From: Hypomesus transpacificus
Lineage: Eukaryota; Chordata; Actinopteri; Osmeriformes; Osmeridae
Direction of reading: 5' to 3'
DNA length: 64,000 nucleotides
Assembly (NCBI RefSeq): GCF_021917145.1
Contig: NC_061076.1
Coordinates: 677,243-741,242, forward strand
Shown: one piece after another, positions 1,522-50,379 of the stretch
How the letters are laid out: every line of letters starts with the position of its first letter
How positions within the stretch are numbered: position 1 is the first letter of the stretch
Translations under genes and position numbers: made by a program
The notes under the pieces: model-generated
Seen by the model: only the letters and a program-made list of their open reading frames with translations
Told to the model about the DNA's origin: nothing
Database searches by the model: none

Positions 1522-4500
1522 TCAGCAGGGGGTGGAGGGACGCCTCTGTTCTGATAACGGGACTGTGGCTGTGACTGTTGTGTCGTCGATCCCGTTGTTG
1601 ACCTGTACACACTGCTGGATGGCTGAGGTGAAATGAGAACACAAACAGTTGGTGTGACGTGCTAGTGTGTATGAGTCTGTCTGTCTCTTGCTCTGGGGTT
1701 CTCACCTGGAAGTGGTTCTCCTCAGGTAGAACGTGCAGGTAGGGGGAGTCCTTTATCTCACTGTACACTGACTCGGTATGGTAGGTCTGGTCCACGGCAG
1801 CTGGACAGGGAAGGAGCAGTCTGCTGCTTGCAGGTGGAGGTGGGGGATTGAACAGAGGTGGTGGAGGAAGAACAGGACGCACAGACGTATAGTTTCCTCT
1901 TGCATTGGCAGGCTTAGGGTACAGGAAACATGACATACTCATTAAACTCAGTACAGCTACAGACATCGTCTTTGTCGTCGTCGTCATCGTCATCTACCGC
2001 TTATCTGGGGTCAGGTCGCGGGGGCAACAACCTAAACAGGGAGGCCCAGACTTCCCTCTCCCCGGCCACTTCCACCAGCTCTTCCTGGGGGACCCCGAGG
2101 CGTTCCCAGGCCAGCCGAGAGACATAGTCCCTCCAGCGTGCCCTGGGTCTTCCCCGGGACCTCTTACCAGTGGGACGTGCCCAGAACACCTCACCAGGGA
2201 GGCGTCCAGGAGGCATCCTGATCAGATGCCCGAGCCACCTCAGCTGGCTCCTCTCGACACGGAGGAGCAGCGGTTCTACTCTGAGCCCCTCCCGGATGAC
2301 CGAGCTTCTCACCCTATCTCTAAGGGAGAGCCCGGACACCCGCTTGTATTCGTGATCTCGTTCTTTCGGGCACAACCCATAGTTCGTGACCATAGGTGAG
2401 GGTAGGAACATAGATCGACTGGTAAATAGAGAGCTTCGCCTTTCGACTCAGCTCCTTCTTCACAACGACGGACCGATGCAGAGCCCGCATCACTGCGGAT
2501 GCCGCACCGATGCACCTGTCGATCTCGCGCTCCATTCTGCCCTCACTCGTAAACAAGACCCAGAGATACTTGAACTCCTCCGCTTGGGTCAAGATCCCAA
2601 GAGAATCCAGTACCCCGTACTCTCGGAGCACCCCCCACATGAGCCTCCGAGGGACACGGTCGAACGCCTTTTCCAAATCCACAAAACATGTGTTGACTGG
2701 TTGGGCGAACTCCCATGTACCCTCCAGGACTCTCTGGAGGGTATAGAGCTGGTCCACTGGTGGAGCTTTTCAACCACCTCGGCGACCTCAGCCCCTGAGA
2801 TAGAAGGGCCCCCCCAATGTCCCCAGACTCTGCCTCCACGTCGGAAAGCGTGACGGTGGAATTAAGGAGGTCTTCAAAGTATTCCTTCTACTGATCCAGG
2901 ACGTCCCCCCATCGAGGTCAGCAGCAGAGGGGAGGTCACCATCCCCACCATATACAGTGTTGCTACAGACATACTCATTCATTTCTATATTCATGTACAA
3001 TTACATCTAACCAAAGCCAGTGTTACCTTCTCAGTCCTGGTCTGGGATCTTGTGGTCTGGGCTCTACTGGGGGAGTCATGGCCAGCCTGGGCATGCAGGG
3101 GGCTGGACACAGGGCTGATAGGAACAGGAGGAGCTGGTCTCACAGGGGACAGGTAGCCTCCTGAACCCTATCAGTTATGAATCGTTTTCATACAAAGGCA
3201 AAAGGACTGTGAAATTGCCCTAAATTGTAATTACAAATTGACTTAAATATTTTGTTTCATGGGTTTAGAAGTTCTTGTAAGTATAGATTTTCCTGTGCAA
3301 GAAAGACAGAGCTGCAGAATCCTTGAGATGGGTGGAGGTGTTAGTGTCTGGTGAGCTCACCTCCAGTAGACGCTCCCTTAGAGGAGGCGGGGCTTGGTAC
3401 CCTGAGGGGCAGCGGGACAACAAGGGGGAGGGGGGCAGGGCTGGACGGGGAGGGGGGGACAGCAAGGGGGAGGGGGGCAGGGCTGGACGGGGAGGGGGGG
3501 ACAGCAAGGGGGAGGGGGGCAGGGCTGGACGGGGAGGGGGGGACAGCAAGGGGGAGGGGGGCAGGGCTGGACGGGGAGGGGGGGACAGCAAGGGGGAGGG
3601 GGGCAGGGCTGGACGGGGAGGGGGGGACAGCAAGGGGGAGGGGGGCAGGGCTGGACGGGGAGGGGGGGACAGCAAGGGGGAGGGGGGCAGGGCTGGACGG
3701 GGAGGGGGGGACAGCAAGGGGGAGGGGGGCAGGGCTGGACGGGGAGGGGGGGACAGCAAGGGGGAGGGGGGCAGGGCTGGACGGGGAGGGGGGGACAGCA
3801 AGGGGGAGGGGGGCAGGGCTGGACGGGGAGGGGGGGACAGCAAGGGGGAGGGGGGCAGGGCTGGACGGGGAGGGGGGGACAGCAAGGGGGAGGGGGGCAG
3901 GGCTGGACGGGGAGGGGGGGACAGCAAGGGGGAGGGGGGCAGGGCTGGACGGGGAGGGGGGGACAGCAAGGGGGAGGGGGGCAGGGCTGGACGGGGAGGG
4001 GGGGACAGCAAGGGGGAGGGGGGCAGGGCTGGACGGGGAGGGGGGGACAGCAAGGGGGAGGGGGGCAGGGCTGGACGGGGAGGGGGGGACAGCAAGGGGG
4101 AGGGGGGCAGGGCTGGACGGGGAGGGGGGGACAGCAAGGGGGAGGGGGGCAGGGCTGGACGGGGAGGGGGGGACAGCAAGGGGGAGGGGGGCAGGGCTGG
4201 ACGGGGGGACCGGGGAGAACATGGAGGCCTTGTGTCTGAGGGTTGGGGAACACCAGAAACCACCAATGAAAGGTTAGTGAGTGGTGGCTGAATAAACGCA
4301 ATAAACAGTTTGTGCTAAATATTCTCTATAACTCACCGTCCCACTTGTGGTCCTCATTTCATCAAAGGTATCGAGGGAATAAGCTTTGTGTAGGCCTGGG
4401 GGTGGATGTGCAGGACGAAGAGGCCTCGTCTGTGGGCTACGCTCTGTCTGAGGGCTACGCTCTGTCTGAGGGCTACGCTCTGTCTGAGGGCTACGCTCTG

Positions 4501-7442: not shown

Positions 7443-11307
<3,865 letters not shown>

Positions 11308-14748: not shown

Positions 14749-17450
<2,702 letters not shown>

Positions 17451-17829
17451 CTCTGCTTCTCTATGGAGATGGAACGCCCACAGGGGGAGACAAGGCTTGG
17501 TGAAACATGGTCAATGTGGAATCGTGTGTGGTAGCAATGGATAATGATATTGTAAAATAGCATCTGTTCACTAATAAAAGGGAAATTAATACATTAAATG
17601 ACATTAATAATCATGTGTTTTACAGACGCTTTTATCAAAGCGACCTCTGGCTTCACAGATCTCGAAGTAAACAAGACGACTAAGGTCTGAATTCCAGAAC
17701 TGATTGAACGTCAATAGACAATCCCAGTTTGATCTAGGACAGGCGTAATCTGTGTCTGCAAGACCAGGACACATACCTGATTAAATGGTTTGATTTCAAA
17801 TGCTCTTGGTTGCGACAGACGTGCTCTCC

Positions 17830-17915
17830 GCCCCCCCGCTACACCAGCCCCCCCCCCGCTACACCAGGTCCCCCCGCTACACCAGGCCCCCCCGCTACAC
17901 CAGGCCCCCCAGACG
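17830..17915. repeat. GC-rich 17-bp repeat covering the altMiD51 stop codon
   Basis: On the minus strand GGGGGGNCCTGGTGTAGC units repeat four times. The first unit provides the last codons and the TAG stop of the 70-aa upstream ORF. Confidence 0.8.
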
Positions 17916-18107
17916 GCTGCTGAGGAAGAACTGGCCCCTCTTCAAAGCGTCCTCCTTGGCGGTGGGCGCCGTCAGTGCCTGGCAACGGCGGAACTCGCGG
18001 GCCACGGCACGCTGGTAGTAGTTGCGGTCAGTGTGCTGAAGATGGCGCCCTGCACGGAGCAGAGCCCGGTACAGGTCCAGCACCGCACTGCGAGACCAGC
18101 CGCCCAT
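17895..18107 (-). CDS. altMiD51 / MIEF1 micropeptide (LYR-motif protein), upstream ORF of mief1
   Basis: This short ORF encodes exactly 70 aa from the ATG at 18107, the length of the human MIEF1 upstream-ORF product. It contains the LYR signature (VLDLYRALLRAGR) and a second conserved block, YYQRAVAREFRRCQ, as in LYR proteins of the complex 1 family. The human protein is a mitochondrial-matrix factor that associates with mitoribosome assembly. A GTG codon four codons upstream is in frame, but the ATG gives the family length. The MiD51 start follows about 440 bp downstream in another exon, so both probably come from one bicistronic mRNA. The stop codon lies in a GC-rich tandem repeat. The gene is easily missed because it is short and lies in a 5'UTR. 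Confidence 0.88.
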   Translation of the reverse strand: MGGWSRSAVLDLYRALLRAGRHLQHTDRNYYQRAVAREFRRCQALTAPTAKEDALKRGQFFLSSRLGGLV

Positions 18108-18358
18108 CAGGGCCGACACATGGAGAGGGGAGGAGTCCCTGGCTCCTGGGGGGGGGGGGGGGGGAAGTTACATGTTTCATGTATTATTTCAGAAGATGCT
18201 AACATACATACAGGGGGGACTAGGGCCTGAAGAGTACAGCAGGAAATCAGACCGCTGAGTTGTTGGAAACAAAGTCAAGAGAGACAAACAGGGAGAAGGA
18301 AGGAGAAGAGAATGAGTAGTTTAAAGAAGTACAGATGGAGAGAGAGACAGAGAGTGTG

Positions 18359-22020: not shown

Positions 22021-22024
22021 CCTT

Positions 22025-22328
22025 ACTCTACACCTCTCCTTCACTAGGCCTTACTCTACACCTCTCCTTCACTAGACCTTACTCTACACCTCTCTTTCAC
22101 TAGGCCTTACTCTACACCTCTCCTTCACTAGGCCTTACTCTACACCTCTCCTTCACTAGGCCTTACTCTACACCTCTCCTTCACTAGGCCTTACTCTACA
22201 CCTCTCCTTCACTAGGCCTTACTCTACACCTCTCCTTCTCTAGGCCTTACTCTACACCTCTCCTTCACTAGGCCTTACTCTACACCTCTCCTTCACTAGG
22301 CCTTACTCTACACCTCTCCTTCACTAGG
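22025..22328. repeat. Minisatellite of acceptor-like units before the fusion gene's first coding exon
   Basis: The 28-bp unit CTCTCCTTCACTAGGCCTTACTCTACAC repeats about eleven times. It ends at the acceptor CTTCACTAG (22328), eleven bases before the ATG at 22340. Each unit therefore contains a pyrimidine tract and AG, a potential acceptor. Confidence 0.9.
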
Positions 22329-22339
22329 TTGTCAACAGG

Positions 22340-25300
22340 ATGGCCCTTCTTGATTATCCCGTTCCAGAGCTGGATGTGACCTTGCAGGAGGCCAGCCGTG
22401 TGCTCCAGCTCACCCTGGAGCCTGAGCTGTACCCCCAATACATCAGCACCCTGAGCCAGCAGAGGGGGGTTCTGGAGGAGGCCCAAACCCGCTTGGCAGC
22501 CGCTGCCTCTGGAAGGGAGAACTGGGTGACGGAACAGTTCAAGTCCCGGCTGCTGTCATGCACGGACCCTCTGCCCACCTCCACCGCCATCCCCTCCGTG
22601 CTACCCCCCTCCCAGGTAGAGCGCTCCCAAGCGGAGAGGGCAGCAGCCCTGATGTGGGCGGTGGCAAAGCTATACACAGAGCCCTCATTGGTGGAGGGGG
22701 ATGTTCCAACTGAACGCACACAGCAGTCTGAAGTATTTGCTACCAGCCGCATTCCTGGCAGCACTCAGGATCAGATTCAGGTGACTTCTTCAGATACAAA
22801 AATATATTTTTTAGATATTTTATTGCAAAAAAAGATTTAAAGAGGCCCACCTCATCTTATGTGGGTATTTTTTAATGCGATATCAAATGTAACCTTTCCT
22901 CCCCAGGTGTATCCAGAAAGCCTCCATGCCATCATCATCAGCTCAGGTGGAGTGTTTTCTGTCAACATACTGGAGCGCTCCGTCCCAGGAGGGCCCATGT
23001 CCCCTCTGCCTTTCCTCCACATCTACAGCCAGGTGCTTCAGGTGCTGAACCAGCCACCAGCTGCGGAGGAAAACGATCCCCGGGCCATCTGCAGCCTCTC
23101 GGCCCTGCAGCGCCAGGCCTGGAGCTCCGTCAGGGGAGACATCCTGAGGAGAGGAGGGCCCACTGCTGCCTCTCTGGGGGTGATGGAGAGCGCGCTGGTG
23201 GCTCTCTCCCTGGAAGACTGCAATCCACCGTCTGACCTGGCGGACACCCTGAACGCAGTCCGTCTGGGGGGGGGGGACGGATCCTGTCTGAGATACTACG
23301 ACAAGGTACAGGAAATAGGATGTCTGTCATGTGGTGTCCTGGTGAATGAGCTGCATTCATCCCGTGGAGGATGTGGTCTTTACGTATTTGTTTGAAAGAA
23401 AAACAACATGATTATCTGCTGAGTAGACTAATTACATCGATTGAGTTAAATGAATAATGCAATATTGAGTCAGATGGGAAGTTCGTCTTCAACCCCTCCC
23501 AGAGTTATTTGCAGTCCACAATTTTCATCTAATAAAATGTACTTCACAGAAGCACTGGAAGAAAACCGGTTCTTCCTCAGGTTAACATCAACTGGCAAAC
23601 CACACGACAAACAACACACATTCTTCTTTCTCCACAGGTGGTGAATCTGGTGGTGTTTAAAGACAGCACAGCGGGCATGGTGTTTGAGCACAGTGCTTTG
23701 GATGGGATGGTGGCAGGGCTGGTAGCTGAGAGTGTCTTCTACTTGTCAGAATCAGTTAGCTTAGACCTCACCCAGGCTAACATAGTGAGCAGCGATGGAT
23801 CCACCATCGCTAACATGGATTCCCCCACTCCGGGTCCACTGTCGTTTCCAATGCAGGGTATAACCAACCCTAGCCCGAGTCCCCCCCTTAAAGCAACCCA
23901 CCCAGTCCTCACATTTGAGGTTTCCTCTTACGCAGATGTATTCTCAACCTTGCAAGGTCACAGGGGCTTATACGATGCATGGATCAACTTTTCCTTACAG
24001 CTCTCCCTGAGGCAAACTCTAGGGGACTCTGCTGACACCCACATCCTGGTAACACCTACCCACATGCGCCACTACAAACATGGCCGCTGTGACCCCACAT
24101 ACTCTCTCACCATGAAGTCTCGCCAGCTCGTTGGAGCGTTAGCGACCTGCGTGGGACCAGACAACATCCCTCGGTACACCACTGACCTCCTACGCCTCTT
24201 CCACGCTGCCTTCCTGGAGCATAAGAACCTCATCAAAGCTACCAAAAGTGGCCATGGTGTCGGGCCTCACCTCGCTGCCCTCCGCTGGGCTCTGTCTCCA
24301 GACAACCCCCTCAAAAGGTTCCTGGAGTCCTTTGGATGCCCGTCCGTGTATCTCACAGGCAAGGATGTGATGGAGGGTGTGGAGTGTGCGGTGGGAAACG
24401 TTTATGCCAAAGATCAGCTGGCTGTCACGTACCTAGGAAGGAGCGACAGGGTCCGTATGGTGCTCAATGGAAAAGGAAGCTTTGCCACAATCCTGGAGAG
24501 GCTTCAAGATAGCCTGAAGGTCACACTTAAGCTGGTAATGTTGCTTGCTGTCAGATATGCGCTTGCAGGTCAGATGGGAGCCCTGGAGTGCCTGCTACAG
24601 GAAGGACAGGCTGGACAAATGAACGACTTGGTTGAGGGGAAAATCAGCCCGAGTTGTGTCCCTGTCGGCCCAAGGCTGGGAAGAAAAGTGTCCAAGCAAA
24701 CCCTGACCTCTGACCAAGCCACTGCCGACTTGAAACAAGACTTTACTTTGGTGATCCATGGAGGAGCTGGGGAGGTGATGATGCTGAACCAGAAGGTCGT
24801 GGGAGTCATTGAATTTGCCCTCCAGACAGCCCTGACCCTCGGGGCCCGAGTGCTCCAGGGAGGAGGCAGTAGTCTAGATGCTGTGCAGACGTCTGTGGCA
24901 GCCTTGGAGGACTGCTTCCTCTTCAATGCTGGAAAGGGCTCCGTGTTCAACCAAGAAGGCAAGAATGAGATGGAGGCGACCATTGTGGATGGAAGTGGGA
25001 TGACTTCTGGGTCAGTGGCCTGCCTTCAGAGGGTGAAGAACCCGATAAACGCCGCTCGACACGTTATGGACAAAAGTGCACACTCACTGCTAGTAGGGGA
25101 AGGAGCAGAGGAGTTTGTACAAAGCTTGGAGGGGAGCGCCAAGCCTGTGAGCGCACAGTACTTTCACACTGATGTTCGACGCAGGGAGTTAATAACAAAG
25201 CTTAGCGCAGGCAACGCCTCCAAAAACAACCACCCGCAGACTGTTGGTGCTGTGGCGTTGGACCGCCAGGGCAAGCTAGCAGCTGCGACATCTACAGGTG

Positions 25301-27576
25301 GGTTGGTTGGGAAATGGAAAGGCAGAGTTGGAGATACCGCAGTGGTTGGAGCAGGAATATATGCTGATGATCAGTTAGCAGTGACCTGCTCGGGGGATGG
25401 AGATGTGTTCCTAAGCCACACGGTTGCTCAGAAAGTGGCTGGCCTCTACCACCATAAAGGCTCCAATCTGAGACAGGCCTGTCGAGAGCTGATGACTGAG
25501 AACCTGAAGGGGAACTGTGCAGGGATCATCGCTGTAGACGCCAGAGGTGACGCTGTCATTGAGACCAACGCTGGGGTGATGTTTGTGGCCTCTATCATCA
25601 GTGGGATTACCCGCGTTGAAGTCATCAGACCCATGAAGAGTTCCTGTAACGTGATCTGGGAAACTGACAACCTTGTGGCTTACTTACACTCCAGCCCCTG
25701 GACCCCTGGTGCTACCATTCTGACCCGCAAAACCCTTAGTGGGCAAAACAGCATCTTTAAGTTACCCCTGCCAGATTTTCTAGAAATGTTACGAGGGGCA
25801 AAGGCTGTTGCTAGTTTGCTGTGTGATAGAATGGAGGTGCAGCGCTGTGCCTTGGTATGTCAACCACAGCCTGATCAGCCGGCCCAAATCAGAGTGCTGC
25901 CGCTCCACAGCTTGGAGGCCGAATGGAAGCCCCACCTAGCTTCAGAGGAGGACTTCCAGGTCTATGATCCAGGTTACTGCAGCTCAAAGAGTGGCCCGCG
26001 CTGGGAGGACCACGATCTGGACCAGGTCCAGGCCAAGATTCAAAACAAGCTCCCCACACCAAACGCACCCCCCAGCTATGATTATTTAGGAGAGCCCTCC
26101 GATGACAGCCTGTTCTCACGTATAGTGCGGGGCGAAGAGCAACAGTGGCGCGTGTGGGAGGACAACGACCACGTGGCCTTCCTCACTCCTTACCCCAACA
26201 CGCCTGGTCTTACTGTCCTGGTGCCACGCAAACCACTGACCAGCGACATCTTCCGCCTGAAAGACTCTGACTACACGTCCCTGATTCTAGCGGCTCGTAA
26301 AGTGGCCGGTCTGCTGGTGGAAGGACTGAGAGCACGAGGTGTTGCTCTGATCTTCGAGGGTTTTGAGATTGATTACGCTCACGTTAAACTGATCCCTCTG
26401 GTCCCTTCACCAAGCTCCGAGCCTCCTGCCCTGCAGCAGGAGTGTGTCACGGCCTATCCTGGATACGTCTCATCTGCTGATGGCCCCCCGGCTAGCCCTG
26501 AGACCCTGAGAGAGATCTACACCAGGATCTCACTCTGCCGACCCCCCCGCTCCTGGGAGGACCCCCAGACTCACTCTGCCTTGGCCATTAGAAGCCAGTG
26601 GTACCGCAATCTTTTCCAGATTCAGAACACTCTTTTCCACAGCACTGTGGAATACTTTCACAACACCTGCCAGTATTCCTATGCTCTGACCCCTCTCACC
26701 ACAGACACCATATCATCTCCTATGGGCCTGGGATCAGACTCTGAGCCTGTGTTTGTCAACATGCTGGGACAGGGCGTCTATCTGGCTGACTCCATGCAGT
26801 TTGTGCTGGAGTATTTCCTGCGCTTCCAAGAGAACCTGCCGGGCACCTACTACGTATCTCCAAGCTTCAGAGGAGAGGATCCAGACGCAACACACTTGAA
26901 CCAGTTTTACCATGTGGAATGTGAGCTGCTTGGCAACATGGATGATGCCATGAACATAGCAGAGGGCTATGTGGCCAACCTCACCAAAGCTATGCTCAAG
27001 AAGCACTCGGACATCATACTGAATACTGCTGGGACCCTCTCCCATGCACAAGACATGCTGGAGAAGCTGGATGGAAGAACACCCCTCCCAAGAGTCACGT
27101 TGGACCAGGCCATTCCCATGATGCCGTCTGCAGACTGTCTAGAGTGGGTCCAAGATGGCCAACCCCAGTTTGGCAGGAAACTGACACGCAAAGGAGAGCG
27201 GGTGTTGATTAAGAAGTATGGAGGAGCCGTCTGGCTGACAGAGATGGACCACTTAGGTGTGCCTTTCTATCAGGCCTATGTGGAACATAGTGGCAAACGC
27301 AAGGCCAAAGCAGCCGACCTGCTCCTGGGTCTGGGAGAGACTGTGGGTCTGGGAGAGCGCCACTCCACCCCTGAGATGGTGCAGGACGCCCTGAGGCACC
27401 ACCTCGTGCCCGAGGAGTCCTACAGGTGGTACATCAACATGAGGCAGGTCATCCCTCTCCTCACCAGTGGATGGGGAATGGGCACCGAGCGCTATCTGTG
27501 CTGGCTGCTCCAACACGATGACATCAGAGACATTCACATCATCCCCCGCATGAAAGCCAGGAAGTACATGCCCTGA
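22340..27576 (+). CDS. Five-domain fusion: carnitine acyltransferase / asparaginase / HIT x2 / AsnRS-like
   Basis: Three coding exons (22340-22780, 22907-23305, 23638-27576) join in phase 0 and give 1592 aa; the last is a single 3.9-kb exon. Domains in order: (1) choline/carnitine O-acyltransferase, about 1-600, with YYDKVVNLVVFKD...EHS holding the expected catalytic His298, and a GHGVGPHLAALR block. (2) Plant-type (Ntn) asparaginase/isoaspartyl peptidase, about 648-945, with IHGGAG at 653-658, NAGKGSVF, and the autocleavage Thr815 in TVGAVALD, then ATSTGG. (3) A degenerate HIT-like domain, about 955-1070. (4) A second HIT-like domain, about 1105-1205, where the triad reads Y-A-H-V-K and only the central His1195 remains. 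(5) A class II aaRS core of the AspRS/AsnRS type, about 1262-1592, with motif 2 FRGEDPDATHLNQF (Arg1358, Glu1360) and motif 3 GWGMGTER (1558-1565). It lacks the OB-fold anticodon-binding domain, as do archaeal AsnRS-derived asparagine synthetases. The combined function is unknown to me; a role in asparagine turnover is inferred. Confidence 0.85.
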
Positions 27577-27686
27577 AGCCAGGAAGTACATGCCCTGAGA
27601 TGCCCTCAGAACCTTCTATTCCAAAGCGTGGATCACTGTCAATTAACAGAGAGATACTGTACATCAGTGAACTGAGGACTGAAGCA

Positions 27687-28559: not shown

Positions 28560-29052
28560 CCAGCATGTCCTCTCTCCTCTGGACATCTCTCCTCTCTAAC
28601 ACATCTCTCCTCTCTGACACATCTCTCCTCTCTGACACATCTATCCTCTCTGACACATCTCTCCTCTCTAACACATCTCTCCTCTGGACATCTCTCCTCT
28701 GGACATCTCTCCTCTCTCCTCTGGACATCTCTCCTCTGGACATCTCTCCTCTCTCCTCTGGACATCTCTCCTCTCTCCTCTGGACATCTCTCCTCTCTAA
28801 CACATCTCTCCTCTCTAACACATCTCTCCTCTCTAACACATCTCTCCTCTCTGACACATCTCTCCTCTCTGACACATCTCTCCTCTCTAACACATCTCTC
28901 CTCTGGACATCTCTCCTCTGGACATCTCTCGTCTGGACATCTCTCCTCTCTAACACATCTCTCCTCTCTCCTCTGGACATCTCTCCTCTCTAACACATCT
29001 CTCCTCTCTAACACATCTCTCCTCTCTAACACATCTCTCCTCTCTAACACCC
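28560..29052. repeat. Pyrimidine-rich minisatellite (CTCTCCTCTCTAACACAT / CTCTCCTCTGGACAT)
   Basis: Two related units, of 18 and 15 bp, are interleaved for about 490 bp between the fusion gene and mpst. The 18/15-bp lengths keep all frames open, giving false ORFs on both strands. Confidence 0.95.
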
Positions 29053-29504
29053 ACACCAGCCACCAAAGTCCAGTTTGACACAAAGAGTCGCAGAGATAGA
29101 ATAGTCATGTTGACAACATTCCAAGCAAGGCACACAAAACACGATTGTACACGTCCAGCAGAATTGTAAGTGGGGCAGGTATTTGTTTAGTCACACTACA
29201 GGAGAGCCCAAACCCATGACTATCACCAAAGTGCTTCTGCCTTCAACAGCCCCAGAAGGCAATAGACAGAATTACGTGGCAAAATTCTTTTTGTATGTTG
29301 ATATTTTATTCCATATGTTTTTACCAACAAAAAAAACCTTCTTTCCATGGACCTTAATCTCTAAACAAAATGTGTAAAAAGTTCCTTGGCTACTTGTCAG
29401 AGTTGTACGTTCCCACAGAGGGGCGTGGTCACATCGCACACGTGACTTACCCTGTCAAATGATGTACAGCCATAGGGTTAGTGTACCGCTAACTAAAAGC
29501 TGTC

Positions 29505-30560
29505 ATGGCGTCGCAGACCCGTGCACTTGTCTCAGCCCAGTGGCTTGCCGATGCGATAAAAAGCAACCGAATAGGTCCCCACCTGCGGATACTTGATTCG
29601 TCTTGGTATTTGCCGAAACTGAAACGAGATGCCACGTCAGAGTTCAGACAGAAACACATACCCGGCACACACTTCTTTGATCTGGATGAGTGTTCTGACA
29701 AAACTTCATCGCTGGATCACATGTTGCCAACTCAAAATCAATTTGCAGAGTACGTGTCAGGATTAGGTATTGGGAACGACACACATGTTGTAGTGTACGA
29801 TGCCAGCGACTTTGGATCATATAGCGCACCCCGCGTTTGGTGGATGTTCCAGTTATTTGGGCACAATTTTGTCTCCGTGCTGGACGGTGGCATGAAGAAC
29901 TGGCTTCATGAAGGGCGTCAGGTGACGTCAGAGTATTGTTCACCAGAGCGTCAAGAGTTCAAGGCGAGCATCAATCAATCTTGGATAAAGACCTACGACG
30001 ATATCGTGAAGAACATCGAAACCCAACGGTTTCAGGTCATCGATGCTAGGTCCGCTGGCAGGTTTAGGGGAACTGAGCCGGAGCCCAGGGATGGTAAGTT
30101 GCCCCATCAGTAACTGTAAACACCTACAGGTGCACATGTCGAACTGCTTCCATAACATGTATCACAAAAAATAGGTAATGCTTGGGGACACAATCAATCG
30201 TGACACAGAGCTGAATGATCAATGAAGCTTCACAATTCACTCAAATCAACCATACTCTTGCTTTGCTCCACAGACACTAAACCCGGGCACTTCCCTGGTG
30301 CCATCAACATGCCTTTCACCAGTTTCATGGACGCCTCCGGGAGGGAACTGGAGGCTGACCAGCTGACTAAGCTGTTCCAGGAGGCCGGTGTGGACCTGGA
30401 GCGGCCCCTCTGGGCCAGCTGCGGCTCAGGTGTGACGGCGTGTCACGTGGTGCTGGCTGCCCACCTGCTGGGATCTCCGCGAGTGTCCGTGTACGACGGC
30501 TCGTGGGCTGAGTGGTATAAAAGAGCTGCGCCCGAGCATATTATCTCTGAAGGGAAATAG
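29505..30560 (+). CDS. mpst: 3-mercaptopyruvate sulfurtransferase
   Basis: MPST moves sulfur from 3-mercaptopyruvate to acceptors, a step in cysteine breakdown and H2S formation. The exons are 29505-30093 and 30274-30560, joined in phase 1, giving 291 aa, the usual size. Two rhodanese domains are visible: an N-terminal inactive one (RILDSSWYLP, HIPGTHFFDLDECSD, VVVYDASDFGSYSAPRVWWMFQLFGH) and a C-terminal catalytic one. The active loop is CGSGVTACHV with Cys246. CGSG marks MPST, whereas TST (rhodanese) has CRKG, so the family call is firm. The upstream sequence ends in a plain ATGGCG start. Human MPST lies beside TST and CIMIP4/TEX33, and a cimip4-like gene is found downstream here. Confidence 0.95.
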
Positions 30561-30944
30561 AAATTAAGATGAAAGTAGAAATAAAGGTGAGAGAAGGAGA
30601 TAGGAGGTAGACCCCTTCATGTAGCAGAAGTTACTGATCAGTCAACAGAAGATGAATGCACTGAATCCACAGTTACTAAGTGCTCAAGAGGGGGAAAGGT
30701 CAAGGCGTTTTACTTCAGAAACCCTCAGATCAGAGAAGGTTGAGTGTTTTTCACAGGGCTGTAATCATAATATATATTGGGGGGACACATCATATTCAAA
30801 TCTGGTCAAAAAATCCCCCCAATATATTGATATAAAAAAATAAATAAGATATAAATGTTATATGCACACTCTGAAATTATCATAAAAGATGTAATCATAT
30901 TCATAACTAAATATAAAACATTTTCAGGGGGGGACCCTCAAACT

Positions 30945-39223: not shown

Positions 39224-39884
39224 AGTTCCTGGTCTCAGCACCCGACCACAGAGTGCTCATTCTTAGTGACAAGTCCCTATTACAGCTCGACACACCCAAC
39301 CACCTCTTAGTGCTGCTGCATTTCACTAAGTCACAGGATTCAAAACAACCTTTTAACACAGGCATGCCTACACATCACTGTAACCAACCATTCACTCATA
39401 CATCGTGTAAAAAAATATACATTCGTGGAAGATGAAATATCCCTGGATGAATAAAGTTGTTGGAAACATCCACGTTGCAAGTTGTCAACTGTTTAGTTGA
39501 CAAACTGTCAACACCGCTGAGGAGTCCGAGCAGATGAAAGTCACTCTTTTTTAATAACTTCAATGTAAAACTGGAACGAGGAATATGAAATAACACCAGT
39601 TCCATGCCACAACTCTGATTCATAGAGGAAATAACAACATAACTAAAACAATGACATAAAAAGGGAATTATTCTTATACCTGACAGTTCCCCTGTGGAAG
39701 TGACAGAGTAATGTAAACTGATAACATCACAGACGTGGTTTAAGCAAAAACCACTGAAACTAGCTTTTAACCTTAATCTCCTGACAAGTCAGACATAAAA
39801 AAGATCTCTTAATCGTCGCCTCGCTGTGGGGAAGGATGAAAGTATTCACAAGCAGGGAGACAACTCACCTCAACCATGCTCTTC

Positions 39885-40285
39885 TCTCTGTTCTCCTGTC
39901 TGTCTCTGTCTGTCTCTGTCTGTTCTCTGTCTGTTCTCTGTCTGTTTTCTGTCTGTTCTCTCTCTGTTCTCTGTCTGTTCTCTGTCTGTTCTCTCTCTGT
40001 TCTCTGTCTGTTCTCCTGTCTGTTTTCTGTCGGTTCTCTGTCTGTTCTCTGTCTGTTCTCCTGTCTGTTTTCTGTCTGTTTTCTGTCTGTTCTCCTGTCT
40101 GTTCTCCTGTCTGTCTCTGTCTGTCTCTGTCTGTTCTCTGTCTGTTCTCTGTCTGTTCTCCTGTCTGTCTCTGTCTGTTCTCTGTCTGTTCTCTGTCTGT
40201 TCTCTGTCTGTTCTCCTGTCTGTTTTTCTGTCTGTTTTCTGTCTGTTCTCTGTCTGTTCTCCTGTCTGTTCTCTGTTCTCCACCA
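39885..40285. repeat. TCTGTTCTC / TGTCTGTCTC repeat block
   Basis: About 400 bp of interleaved CTGTCTGTTCTCT and CTGTCTGTCTC units. All frames are open on both strands. Confidence 0.95.
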
Positions 40286-40989
40286 GATCACTGACAGACA
40301 TAACGGGCCCTGTTAGGAAAGTTTGATACTGAGCTTGCTCTGTATAGTCTTTCGCAAATGTTATATTCTTCTCTGTGTGAACTTTTATTTGCGATCTGGC
40401 TTTGTCTTATGTTCTGTCTCCTGATTGAGGTAAAACCTGCTACAATCTGGCCTGTTTGGCTACCTGATGAAATCATCGTCTCTGCTGGAAGAGAGCGAGG
40501 GAACACCTGTTTGCATGGCCAAGCAACGCTTTCAATGGGATTTTGAGACTAAATGGTGCATTCTTTAGCATGGAAGAGCCAGTTGAAAATCACACAGGGT
40601 TCAGGGTCAGAGCTGAGCAAAGTATCAAGATTCCCGCTAAAACGAATGGGTTGCATTTAGAACAACTAGCCTACAACAGACGACTCGTCACCCCCTCCCT
40701 TTCATACCACAACCCCCAGCCCCCCCCTCTGTGCTTCTGTGGTCGGAACAGAAATGTTGTTTTCTTGTTTCTTCAGTACACACAACTCGTTCACACTTCC
40801 CCACCAGACCACAGGCTCTGACCTTTCAACACGCATCTCATACACATCACCTGAGATACGCAATTCTCCCTCACACACAAACATACACTTCCTTGCACAC
40901 ACACACACACACACTCATCCTTCACGTGTAGCACTTTCCCCGGCAGGCGAGCAGCCCCTGGCAGCCCCCACCGAGCTGCTGTTGCGACA

Positions 40990-47776: not shown

Positions 47777-49049
47777 CTCTGTGCATGCACGTGTCTGCAT
47801 GAGTGCATTGTGTCGTTGTGTGCATGACTTTGTGTGTGTGTGTCCTGTCAGGTGGTCCTGTGCTTGAGCAGGAGCGTGTGTATTAGTTATGTGGTTTGAC
47901 ATTTAACTGGGACACCACTGGTTTCCGCTTCTTTCACCTACTTGACACAAAGAGCTCACATGCTCGTCTGAAACACAACAACACAGGAAAAATCGATGAT
48001 AAAAACGAATGATATTGGAGGTGTTGAGATGAAATTGTTACATTAGCAACCGCCTCTGGAGAACAGTTTCTGAGGCTTGAGATTCCTATTAGATGCCTCA
48101 TTATGAAAGGATGTTGGACAGACGCACACACCAGATCATTCCTACATAACTAGAGTGCTATTTGATCATACACATCACTATTTGGATTTAGTACTAGATA
48201 CTACATCAGAATAAGTGATTCTGAAAAGATTCCATCTGGAATGATGGAGAAGTGCTCAGCGTTTAGTAGTTCATGTTGTGGTTAGGGTAAGTGCCCTTCT
48301 ACCAGCAGTGGGCGACAAAGCTCAAATGACAGTTAGACTTGGACAGGTTTGTTTCTCTGTGTTCTACATCATGGTCTGTCTCTGTGTTCTACATCATGGT
48401 CTGTCTGTGTTCTACATCATGGTCTGTCTCTCTGAGACATGTTGCAGAACTCATTTACCTCTCTTAGACCATCCTGTTAGTAGAGGACAGTGTCTGTATG
48501 TCTCCATGTGAAGCACACTGGTGCTGTGTCTGTGTCTCCACCCAGACACGAGGCGAGGAGGTAAGCTATTGAGAACCAACCCTAACTTTGCTGGTATTGG
48601 AGAGGGTTTGCATGCACATGAGGCACACAAACACACACACAGAGTGGCACCTAATTAAAACGGAAGGATATCTAACATAGCGCCTAGGAGTCTGATGTAA
48701 AAATACTGTCTGTGGGCAGCAGAAGATGTTTTCTGATGTGAGAATTGGAGGGTCAGCAGCCAGGTACGTACGAGCGGACACCTGGAAGGTCAACCTGGAA
48801 ACTGCCTGAGGAATTTTAGCAGGTCAGGTACAGCTGTACCCTTGCATACAACTGGACGAGCAAGACTTCGAAACTGAGAGCAAAATCCAGATAGGGAGAA
48901 TAAAAGACTTAGATAAGACTGAGAAACAGACAGAGGAAGCTAAAGGGAGGAGAGTATAACCTTGGAATCAATCACAGAAAAGGCCAAATGTGTCTATTTA
49001 TAGCCTATGAGACAGATGGAGAAGAGCTCCTTTAATAATATAACTGCAC

Positions 49050-49662
49050 AAAGTTCGGAGCAGGCTGAGGCAGGAGAGCCAGGCTAACTGGGTTCGGAGC
49101 AGGCTTCAACAGGAGAGCCAGGCTAACTGGGTTCGGAGCAGGCTCCACCAGGAGAGCCAGGCTAACTGGGTTCGGAGCAGGCTCCACCAGGAGAGTCAGG
49201 CTAACTGGGTTCTGAGCAGGCTCAGGCAGGAGAGCCAGGCTAACTGGGTTCTGAGCAGGCTCAGGCAGGAGAGCCAGGCTAACTGGGTTCTGAGCAGGCT
49301 TAGGCAGGAGAGCCAGGCTAACTGGGTTCGGAGCAGGCTCCACCAGGAGAGTCAGGCTAACTGGGTTCTGAGCAGGCTCAGGCAGGAGAGTCAGGCTAAC
49401 TGGGTTCGGAGCAGGCTCAGGCAGGAGAGTCAGGCTAACTGGGTTCGGAGCAGGCTCCACCAGGAGAGTCAGGCTAACTGGGTTCGGAGCAGGCTCAGGC
49501 AGGAGAGTCAGCCTAACTGGGTTCGGAGCAGGCTCAGGCAGGAGAGTTAGGCTAACTGGGTTCGGAGCAGGCTCAGGCAGGAGAGTCAGGCTAACTGGGT
49601 TCGGAGCAGGCTCAGGCAGGAGAGTCAGGCTAACTGGGTTCGGAGCAGGCTCAGGCAGGACG
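49050..49662. repeat. 39-bp minisatellite, about 16 copies
   Basis: GAGCAGGCTCAGGCAGGAGAGTCAGGCTAACTGGGTTCG repeats with two variant centres (CTCCACCAGG and CTCAGGCAGG) and C/T changes. The 39-bp unit keeps one frame open on the minus strand, giving a false ORF of 142 codons. Confidence 0.96.
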
Positions 49663-50379
49663 AGCTAACGCGCAGCAGATGTGCTCATGTTACACGTGTA
49701 CACAGCGTCTGCTCCCCCAGCCGTGGCTAGCGGAGCTCTCAGATCCGACTTTTAGGTTTCCGTAACATCGGGACGGAAAGGCTATTGTTTATTTTGCCTG
49801 TAGAGCACATTCACACAAGGACTTTGAATTAGGTAGAACTGTCTCCTCCATCTCTGTAATCATACTCCATCATTTTAGCTGGTGAGAAACTGCCATATCG
49901 CAACATCCTGCTGCCTGCCAGCAGTAAGACCTCACTGTTAAACACAACGACCAGGACTATAGGACTTTGGCTGGCACAAGGTTTTTTATCAATAAATCAA
50001 GTTATTGGCATCAGATCCATACATGTTTTTGTCATGGTCCTTGCAGGATCCTGTCATTTTCATGAGTTACTGACTTTTAATGACTGAGGAGCGTCGCGGT
50101 CCTGTTCTTACAGACTGTAAATGTCATGTTGAATTTCATGCACAGTAATTGATGGAGAAGCTTACTGCCAACATAAACGACTCTATTTGCCAGACATACT
50201 CTGGACGAATCAGAACATGGGCAGAGCCAAATAGCAGAGCCAACTATAGCCTATGTATAAAGCAAACCACTTTTTTCGATTATTATGCATTGCAAGGTAG
50301 GACGGAGTCGAATTACATCTGTAAGTGAACATGGACAAGTAGGGATCTAAATGGTAGTGTGTAAAGAGATAGAAAGTGA

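Follow-up and report, generated by a model that had tools for sequence, protein, structure and literature searches.

HIT proteins of the MccH clade carry the motif ExxxxxHxHxKxx, whose Lys and central His are indispensable, and act on aspartamide-adenylate, the toxic moiety of microcin C, by hydrolyzing its P-N bond; MccF cleaves the carboxamide of aspartamide-AMP (PMC7157772, in the passages cited here). In fish, a gene at the locus si:ch211-256m1.8, called saiyan in clownfish papers, showed 4.7 transcripts per million (TPM) in white clownfish skin and 0 TPM in orange skin and was one of 216 genes positively selected with the gain of bars, at sites without convergence (PMC12918100, in part). 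It is reported as needed for iridophores, in a passage that cites a 2019 source second-hand, and iridophores contain guanine platelets (PMC12919797, in part). The gene, the name saiyan, and the iridophore role are already in print. We analyzed a 64,000-nucleotide stretch of the smelt Hypomesus transpacificus (RefSeq assembly GCF_021917145.1, contig NC_061076.1, positions 677,243 to 741,242, forward strand), called the window here, in whose numbering all smelt coordinates are given. The window contains saiyan under the same locus name, and we describe it as a gene for a single chain of five enzyme domains that is conserved end to end between fish and a giant sulfur bacterium, Candidatus Parabeggiatoa.

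The smelt gene encodes five domains in one chain

Three exons with AG/GT borders splice to 4,779 nt, which encode 1,592 aa with a single terminal stop, and a database entry identical over all 1,592 aa is titled "uncharacterized protein si:ch211-256m1.8 [Hypomesus transpacificus]." These splice borders and the identical entry bear out a preliminary description of this DNA, which had proposed two short exons joined in phase to a 3,939-bp last exon. Its five domains were recovered as well, with Pfam matches to Carn_acyltransf, Asparaginase_2, HIT, and tRNA-synt_2 and with the first HIT domain recognized by its likeness to the second, and His298, Thr815, Arg1358, and GWGMGTER all stand where it had placed them. 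Domains were called from Pfam (exon by exon), NCBIfam, and PDB sequence matches. They run in the order acyltransferase (aa 1 to 600), Ntn asparaginase (aa 646 to 945), HIT1 (aa 946 to 1085), HIT2 (aa 1086 to 1245), and a core like that of asparaginyl-tRNA synthetase (AsnRS; aa 1255 to 1592). Chance would not plausibly produce a 1,346-codon open frame that also shows these family matches. The parts of the gene are as follows.

22340..22780, plus strand: coding exon 1, 441 nt, aa 1 to 147, N-terminal part of the acyltransferase, GT border, Carn_acyltransf match at 2.7e-11
22907..23305, plus strand: coding exon 2, 399 nt, aa 148 to 280, acyltransferase, AG/GT borders, in phase, Carn_acyltransf match at 9.1e-10
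23638..27576, plus strand: coding exon 3, 3,939 nt, aa 281 to 1592 and stop, remaining domains in a single frame
23638..24597, plus strand: C-terminal acyltransferase segment, reaching about aa 600, with HxxxD at aa 298 to 302, GRCDPTYS at aa 429 to 436, and VGPHL at aa 488 to 492
24733..25632, plus strand: Ntn asparaginase/isoaspartyl peptidase, aa 646 to 945, nucleophile Thr815 at 25240 to 25242
25633..26052, plus strand: HIT1, a degenerate HIT domain, aa 946 to 1085, recognized by its likeness to HIT2
26053..26532, plus strand: HIT2, a lysine-type HIT domain, aa 1086 to 1245, with E1187-x5-Y1193-x-H1195-x-K1197 at 26356 to 26388
26560..27573, plus strand: AsnRS-like class II core, aa 1255 to 1592, with motif 2 SFRGED, GETVGLGERH, and motif 3 GWGMGTER and no anticodon-binding domain

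A search with the full-length protein returned 211 matches at an E value of ≤1e-3, and all conservation counts below use the best 120 of these. They share 64 to 100% identity with the smelt protein, and the 110 that are named all come from bony fishes. The preliminary description had allowed that homologs might prove to be separate genes, which would make the fusion an annotation artifact; all 120 carry the five domains in the same order. With the identical database protein, these 120 rows of the same architecture, and a bacterial homolog in one frame, we rejected an annotation artifact.

A bacterial homolog carries the same five domains

Scanning genome contigs of 84,980 prokaryote species with two peptide patterns, we obtained 77 loci that encode core relatives. 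The five-domain architecture occurs at one of these loci, L071, on a Parabeggiatoa contig, with all domains in the same order and in one frame of 1,499 codons that is open at the contig start. The fish and Parabeggiatoa proteins align in one stretch, with 648 of 1,577 columns identical. Measured against the intact 1,607-aa Parabeggiatoa protein P0241, the fish chain is 32.5% identical in the acyltransferase, 51.9% in the asparaginase, 27.3% in HIT1, 62.5% in HIT2, and 63.1% in the core. In the core, L071 and fish share 62% identity, and the remaining 76 loci reach 48% at most.

We also searched for core proteins, keeping the best 120 of 1,646 and admitting proteins of 186 to 591 aa only, and built a midpoint-rooted tree of 189 core sequences that left out 4 of the 77 loci (match of <250 aa) and 12 of the 120 proteins (short). 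One clade of 96 tips (support, 0.999) unites fish, the brachiopod Lingula, named fungi, metagenome proteins, and Parabeggiatoa; a second, of 93 tips (support, 0.918), holds 72 prokaryote loci and 21 database proteins. Parabeggiatoa is nested in the 96-tip clade within a group of five (0.714), and the node that joins the other members but one has a support of 0.212. The Lingula model (365 aa) has a core at 64% identity among the core relatives listed. Among the best 120 of 1,646 core relatives, fish included, we saw pieces of HIT2 in 12, of HIT1 in 8, of the asparaginase in 3, and of the acyltransferase in none; a Byssothecium protein (P0211) reads HIT1-HIT2-core, and a Fusarium protein (P0185) has the end of the asparaginase and the core. 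No full-length fungal protein was seen in this set of proteins of 186 to 591 aa.

The bacterial gene has a G+C content of 0.54 and its flank one of 0.41, a difference suggesting that the gene came into the bacterial genome from outside. We considered whether L071 is a eukaryotic contaminant contig and judged this unlikely, given that its neighboring 83-aa open reading frame is matched in 26 of the 42 genomes searched from this bacterial order, including its own (two copies). A second bacterial carrier was not found in the 42 genomes of the order: the acyltransferase part gave matches in two, namely, the Parabeggiatoa genome itself and one weak match (E value of 2e-4). Transfer across domains of life, in either direction, is the simplest reading of these sequences.

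Catalytic residues are kept in four of the five domains

The core matches Pfam tRNA-synt_2 (1.5e-28) and keeps R1358 in 119 of 120 rows and E1360 in all 120. Its predicted fold is AsnRS-like, with a class II catalytic core. Both an anticodon-binding domain and a basic motif-2 loop, which would mark an AsnRS, are absent. The motif-2 loop, which is linked to tRNA, has five residues and no Arg or Lys in 129 of the 160 core relatives that matched the pattern (29 of 189 unmatched and left out), versus six residues with two to four Arg or Lys in three solved AsnRS.

The Ntn domain matches Asparaginase_2 (PF01112) at 2.2e-77, with 260.7 bits against a gathering cutoff of 27, and Thr815 corresponds to the start of the beta chain in solved isoaspartyl peptidases. 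Thr815 is found in 120 of 120 rows, T833 in 118 (Ser in the other 2), and R843 and D846 in all 120; we take the last three to be the supporting Thr, Arg, and Asp of Ntn asparaginases. These two domains bear on the reading that the preliminary description had offered, an asparagine-making and an asparagine-cleaving module in one chain. Here the core would make Asn from Asp and the Ntn domain would cleave Asn or beta-aspartyl peptides, with ammonia possibly channeled between them. A class II core that lacks the anticodon-binding domain is a feature of AsnRS-related asparagine synthetases, and the smelt core scores under every cutoff of the PRK06462-type models of those enzymes (186.6 of 322 and 177.6 of 389 bits). 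We keep this cycle of asparagine and ammonia as an unlikely alternative; the preliminary description held up in its anatomy and only in part in its interpretation.

Carn_acyltransf (PF00755) is matched in all three exons, at 2.8e-16 in exon 3, and the catalytic HxxxD is kept, with H298 in 118 of 120 rows (2 gaps) and D302 in 117 (3 gaps). The carnitine or choline acceptor signature was not found: P490, placed by alignments with CROT and CPT2, is Pro in all 119 fish rows with a letter there and in Parabeggiatoa. At what we presume to be this acceptor-determining site, other smelt acyltransferase loci have Arg in seven cases and Asn in two (9 of 10 loci read; the locus on contig C4 was left out). 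By its residues, the acceptor site is of neither the carnitine nor the choline type.

HIT2 matches Pfam HIT at 9.3e-6 and is the only one of the two HIT domains to pass; HIT1 falls below Pfam detection. The two are 31% identical over 131 aa, C-terminal extension included (pairwise E value of 2e-16), and since the likeness takes in this extension, they look like a tandem duplication. At position 1030, the place of the central His, HIT1 has Q in 84 rows, H in 19, Y in 6, K in 4, C in 3, and other residues in 4, so that the His is lost in 101 of 120 (E in Parabeggiatoa), and only 5 rows have H there with K two residues later. Its role is probably structural. The preliminary description had counted a loss of catalytic residues across homologs as an argument for pseudoenzymes; four domains keep them, and HIT1 lacks its central His in most rows. 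This loss and that of the carnitine signature are what could be said for a pseudoenzyme scaffold or an artifact. The 120 fish rows and the bacterium keep the catalytic residues in the other four domains, one exon spans 3,939 bases, and the bacterial homolog lies in one frame, and we consider that explanation very improbable.

HIT2 keeps the Glu, central His, and Lys of the MccH motif (E1187 in 119 of 120 rows and H1195 and K1197 in all 120). E-x5-Y-x-H-x-K or a similar motif also occurs in HIT2 of Parabeggiatoa, of the fungal protein P0211, and of the proteins P0175, P0201, P0160, and P0210. We searched 23 hand-picked genomes, the smelt genome and 22 with AsnRS-like genes, for HIT proteins. 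The two prokaryote HIT proteins closest to HIT2 there are HxHxK proteins, and the third is an HxHxH protein. One HxHxK protein clusters with HIT2 at a support of 0.983 in a small tree of HxHxK and HxHxH proteins, and the other shares an 8.5-kb contig with an AsnRS-like gene (L020). HIT2 is MccH-like in signature and not a proven member of the clade.

An MccH-like HIT2 would also suit damage control or detoxification, in which the chain removes toxic aspartyl- or isoaspartyl-nucleotides as in microcin C-like immunity. That immunity offers an analog for each class of activity: MccE acetylates the alpha-amino group, MccF cleaves the carboxamide, MccH cleaves the P-N bond, and AspRS is the target (PMC7157772 and PMC9239234, in the passages cited). 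Such a role leaves the need for the gene in one pigment cell type unexplained and makes an amino acid-activating core superfluous. We know of no such peptide-nucleotide toxin in fish, and we regard detoxification as distinctly unlikely.

Stand-alone bacterial relatives lie near S66 peptidase genes

An S66 peptidase gene lies near the AsnRS-like gene in 60 of the 77 prokaryote loci (within 3 kb in 38, on the same strand in 50), a methyltransferase gene in 53, and both in 48; these are profile counts, and the profile seeds were drawn from the same loci. About 0.7 S66 genes would be expected in the 1.42 Mb of these loci, judging from 37 matches in 73.4 Mb (20 genomes hand-picked out of the 77 loci). 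The 60 loci are not independent because Streptomyces is overrepresented, and S66-linked loci also occur in Firmicutes, Proteobacteria, the small-genome Patescibacteria, Elusimicrobia, and Poribacteria. MccF is an S66 peptidase, and LD-carboxypeptidases likewise belong to S66.

One locus, in Vibrio ostreicida (L067:5090-17980), holds genes for S66, ThiF-rhodanese, ThiS, TfuA, the AsnRS-like protein, a 714-aa protein with no Pfam match, YcaO, a methyltransferase, a MatE exporter, and a MetRS-like class I synthetase. Its ThiS, TfuA, and 714-aa proteins have relatives in L038, L052, and L064. From its gene content, it looks like a thioamide-forming cluster with two tRNA synthetase paralogs.

Gene neighborhood and other features of the window

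Two genes flank saiyan in the window.

14761..18128, minus strand: MIEF1
29499..30563, plus strand: two-rhodanese gene, which we take to be MPST/TST

In Channa and Scortum, the gene models extend beyond saiyan to take in MIEF1, and one lamprey model combines the rhodanese gene with a portion of the core, so that the gene order seems to extend to lampreys. Run-on models of this kind suggest that the genes are tightly packed and that their order is ancient. MIEF1 is likewise named as a neighbor in Cottus (PMC5638112, in part).

Eleven 28-bp tandem repeats (22021 to 22328), each ending in the splice acceptor-like CACTAGG, stop 11 bases 5' of the start codon, and a perfect 22-bp tandem duplication spans the stop codon (27554 to 27598). 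Low-complexity or tandem arrays at 3265 to 4314, 9370 to 9910, 28583 to 29050, 39785 to 40406, and 49032 to 49664 are open in several frames and nongenic. Rfam gave no match at gathering thresholds. Elsewhere in the smelt genome, contig C210 has two partial, HIT-only copies (L114:5366-5791 and L115:4482-5856) at 72 to 73% identity to saiyan HIT2 in the matched part, with no core near them within the 40 of 80 kb inspected. These copies may be decay remnants or exons belonging to a larger gene.

Discussion

Saiyan encodes a five-domain chain that keeps catalytic residues in four of its five domains and is conserved end to end between a bacterium and fish; by published accounts, the gene is expressed in white skin that bears iridophores. 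It seems to be a real chemical pathway packed into one protein, probably built around aspartate or asparagine. The AsnRS-like core, the MccH-like HIT2, and the S66 neighbor of the bacterial cousins together point to aspartyl- or asparaginyl-adenylate or aspartamide chemistry without tRNA, and these three signs, with an Ntn family that acts on beta-aspartyl amides, favor a one-chain biosynthetic enzyme. We tentatively propose, as possible and short of probable, that one catalytically competent chain forms a small biosynthetic line for a compound derived from aspartate or asparagine.

The core would activate Asp or Asn as an adenylate and transfer it to an amine or ammonia in place of tRNA. HIT2 would cleave or reuse an aspartamide-nucleotide bond that arises en route or in error, the Ntn domain would hydrolyze or transfer a beta-aspartyl amide, and the acyltransferase would move an acyl group from coenzyme A to an acceptor other than carnitine or choline. 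In fish, the product would serve guanine-crystal iridophores and, presumably, would have another use in fungi and bacteria. The sequence of steps, the identity of the product, and the iridophore link are inferred. The most specific form of the proposal is doubtful: a complete small-molecule pathway, contained in a single polypeptide, would have moved between domains of life and, in fish, been adopted by reflective pigment cells. By way of an aspartamide-nucleotide, with an MccH-type HIT domain for one dedicated step, it would make a new acylated amide, aspartyl or asparaginyl, that guanine-crystal iridophores require for their formation or upkeep.

Several points weigh against a biosynthetic line of this kind. 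No substrate, product, or activity is known for the chain. In HIT2, Tyr1193 takes the place of the first MccH-motif His in 108 of 120 rows, and the other 12 have His there. The place of MccH Phe44, which we take to be the Phe that replaces the N-terminal His of HIT proteins, is L in 79 rows, F in 16, I in 11, V in 8, and another residue in 6; Phe is found there in Parabeggiatoa, in the fungal P0211, and in P0175 and P0201. HIT and asparaginase neighbors are rare, in 1 of 77 loci each besides L071. The S66-linked bacterial genes group separately from the multidomain type, so what surrounds them may not apply to the fish chain, and five S66 neighbors match muramoyltetrapeptide carboxypeptidase best, far under its cutoff, which leaves an MccF-like activity unsupported. 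The statement on zebrafish, in the passage cited, is second-hand, the original being Salis 2019.

The iridophore link could also be read as mainly nucleotide or purine chemistry for guanine crystals, in which HIT2 would have a purine nucleotide or its conjugate as substrate and the remaining domains would take part in iridophore purine turnover. This would suit the guanine platelets of iridophores (PMC12919797), the action of HIT domains on nucleotides (PMC7157772), and expression in white skin only in clownfish (PMC12918100), as far as the passages cited go. Relatives of the chain occur in fungi and Parabeggiatoa, organisms without iridophores. To our knowledge, the five domain families include no known purine enzyme, and we find this explanation quite improbable.

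Fish structural color depends on iridophores, and the papers cited give no biochemical meaning to saiyan, one of the genes reported as needed for these cells. Read as a five-domain enzyme whose active sites can be tested, this marker gene poses a question of metabolism: which compound derived from aspartate or asparagine do reflective cells need? The bacterial homolog offers an alternative protein for assays and indicates that a whole five-domain enzyme moved across domains of life, and the MccH-like HIT domain and S66-linked bacterial relatives connect a vertebrate protein to the chemistry of peptide-nucleotide antibiotics and immunity. In open-access papers, we found none that join the enzyme names and none that join MccF, S66, and AsnRS, nor did we find there the five-domain anatomy, the bacterial homolog, the HIT2 signature, the acceptor-site change, or the S66 link; Salis 2019 may mention some of the domains. 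The passages cited from the clownfish papers treat saiyan as an iridophore gene or marker and mention neither five domains nor a bacterial homolog.

The acyltransferase matches CROT (E value of 6.7e-13) and shares HxxxD with the choline/carnitine acyltransferases CrAT, CROT, CPT2, and ChAT, but its acceptor site reads GRCDPTYS and VGPHL, versus GRT(D/E)T(I/V/M)R with DRHL or GRVDNIR with DNHL elsewhere in smelt, which we take to be the carnitine and choline types, respectively. The Ntn domain keeps the nucleophilic Thr and supporting residues of ASRGL1 and EcAIII but is embedded in a longer chain; at one of its sites, fish have CSGDGD and Parabeggiatoa has CTGTGE. HIT2 differs from the MccH-clade hydrolases in belonging to a tandem HIT pair within a chain of five domains. 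Compared with AsnRS, the core lacks the anticodon-binding domain and has a nonbasic motif-2 loop that is one residue shorter. Compared with the AsnRS-related asparagine synthetases (PRK06462; archaeal 3p8t), it is matched better by AsnRS structures among the 50 rows listed, and the signature GxGExxGxGxRH, present in 181 of 189 core relatives, sets it apart from them.

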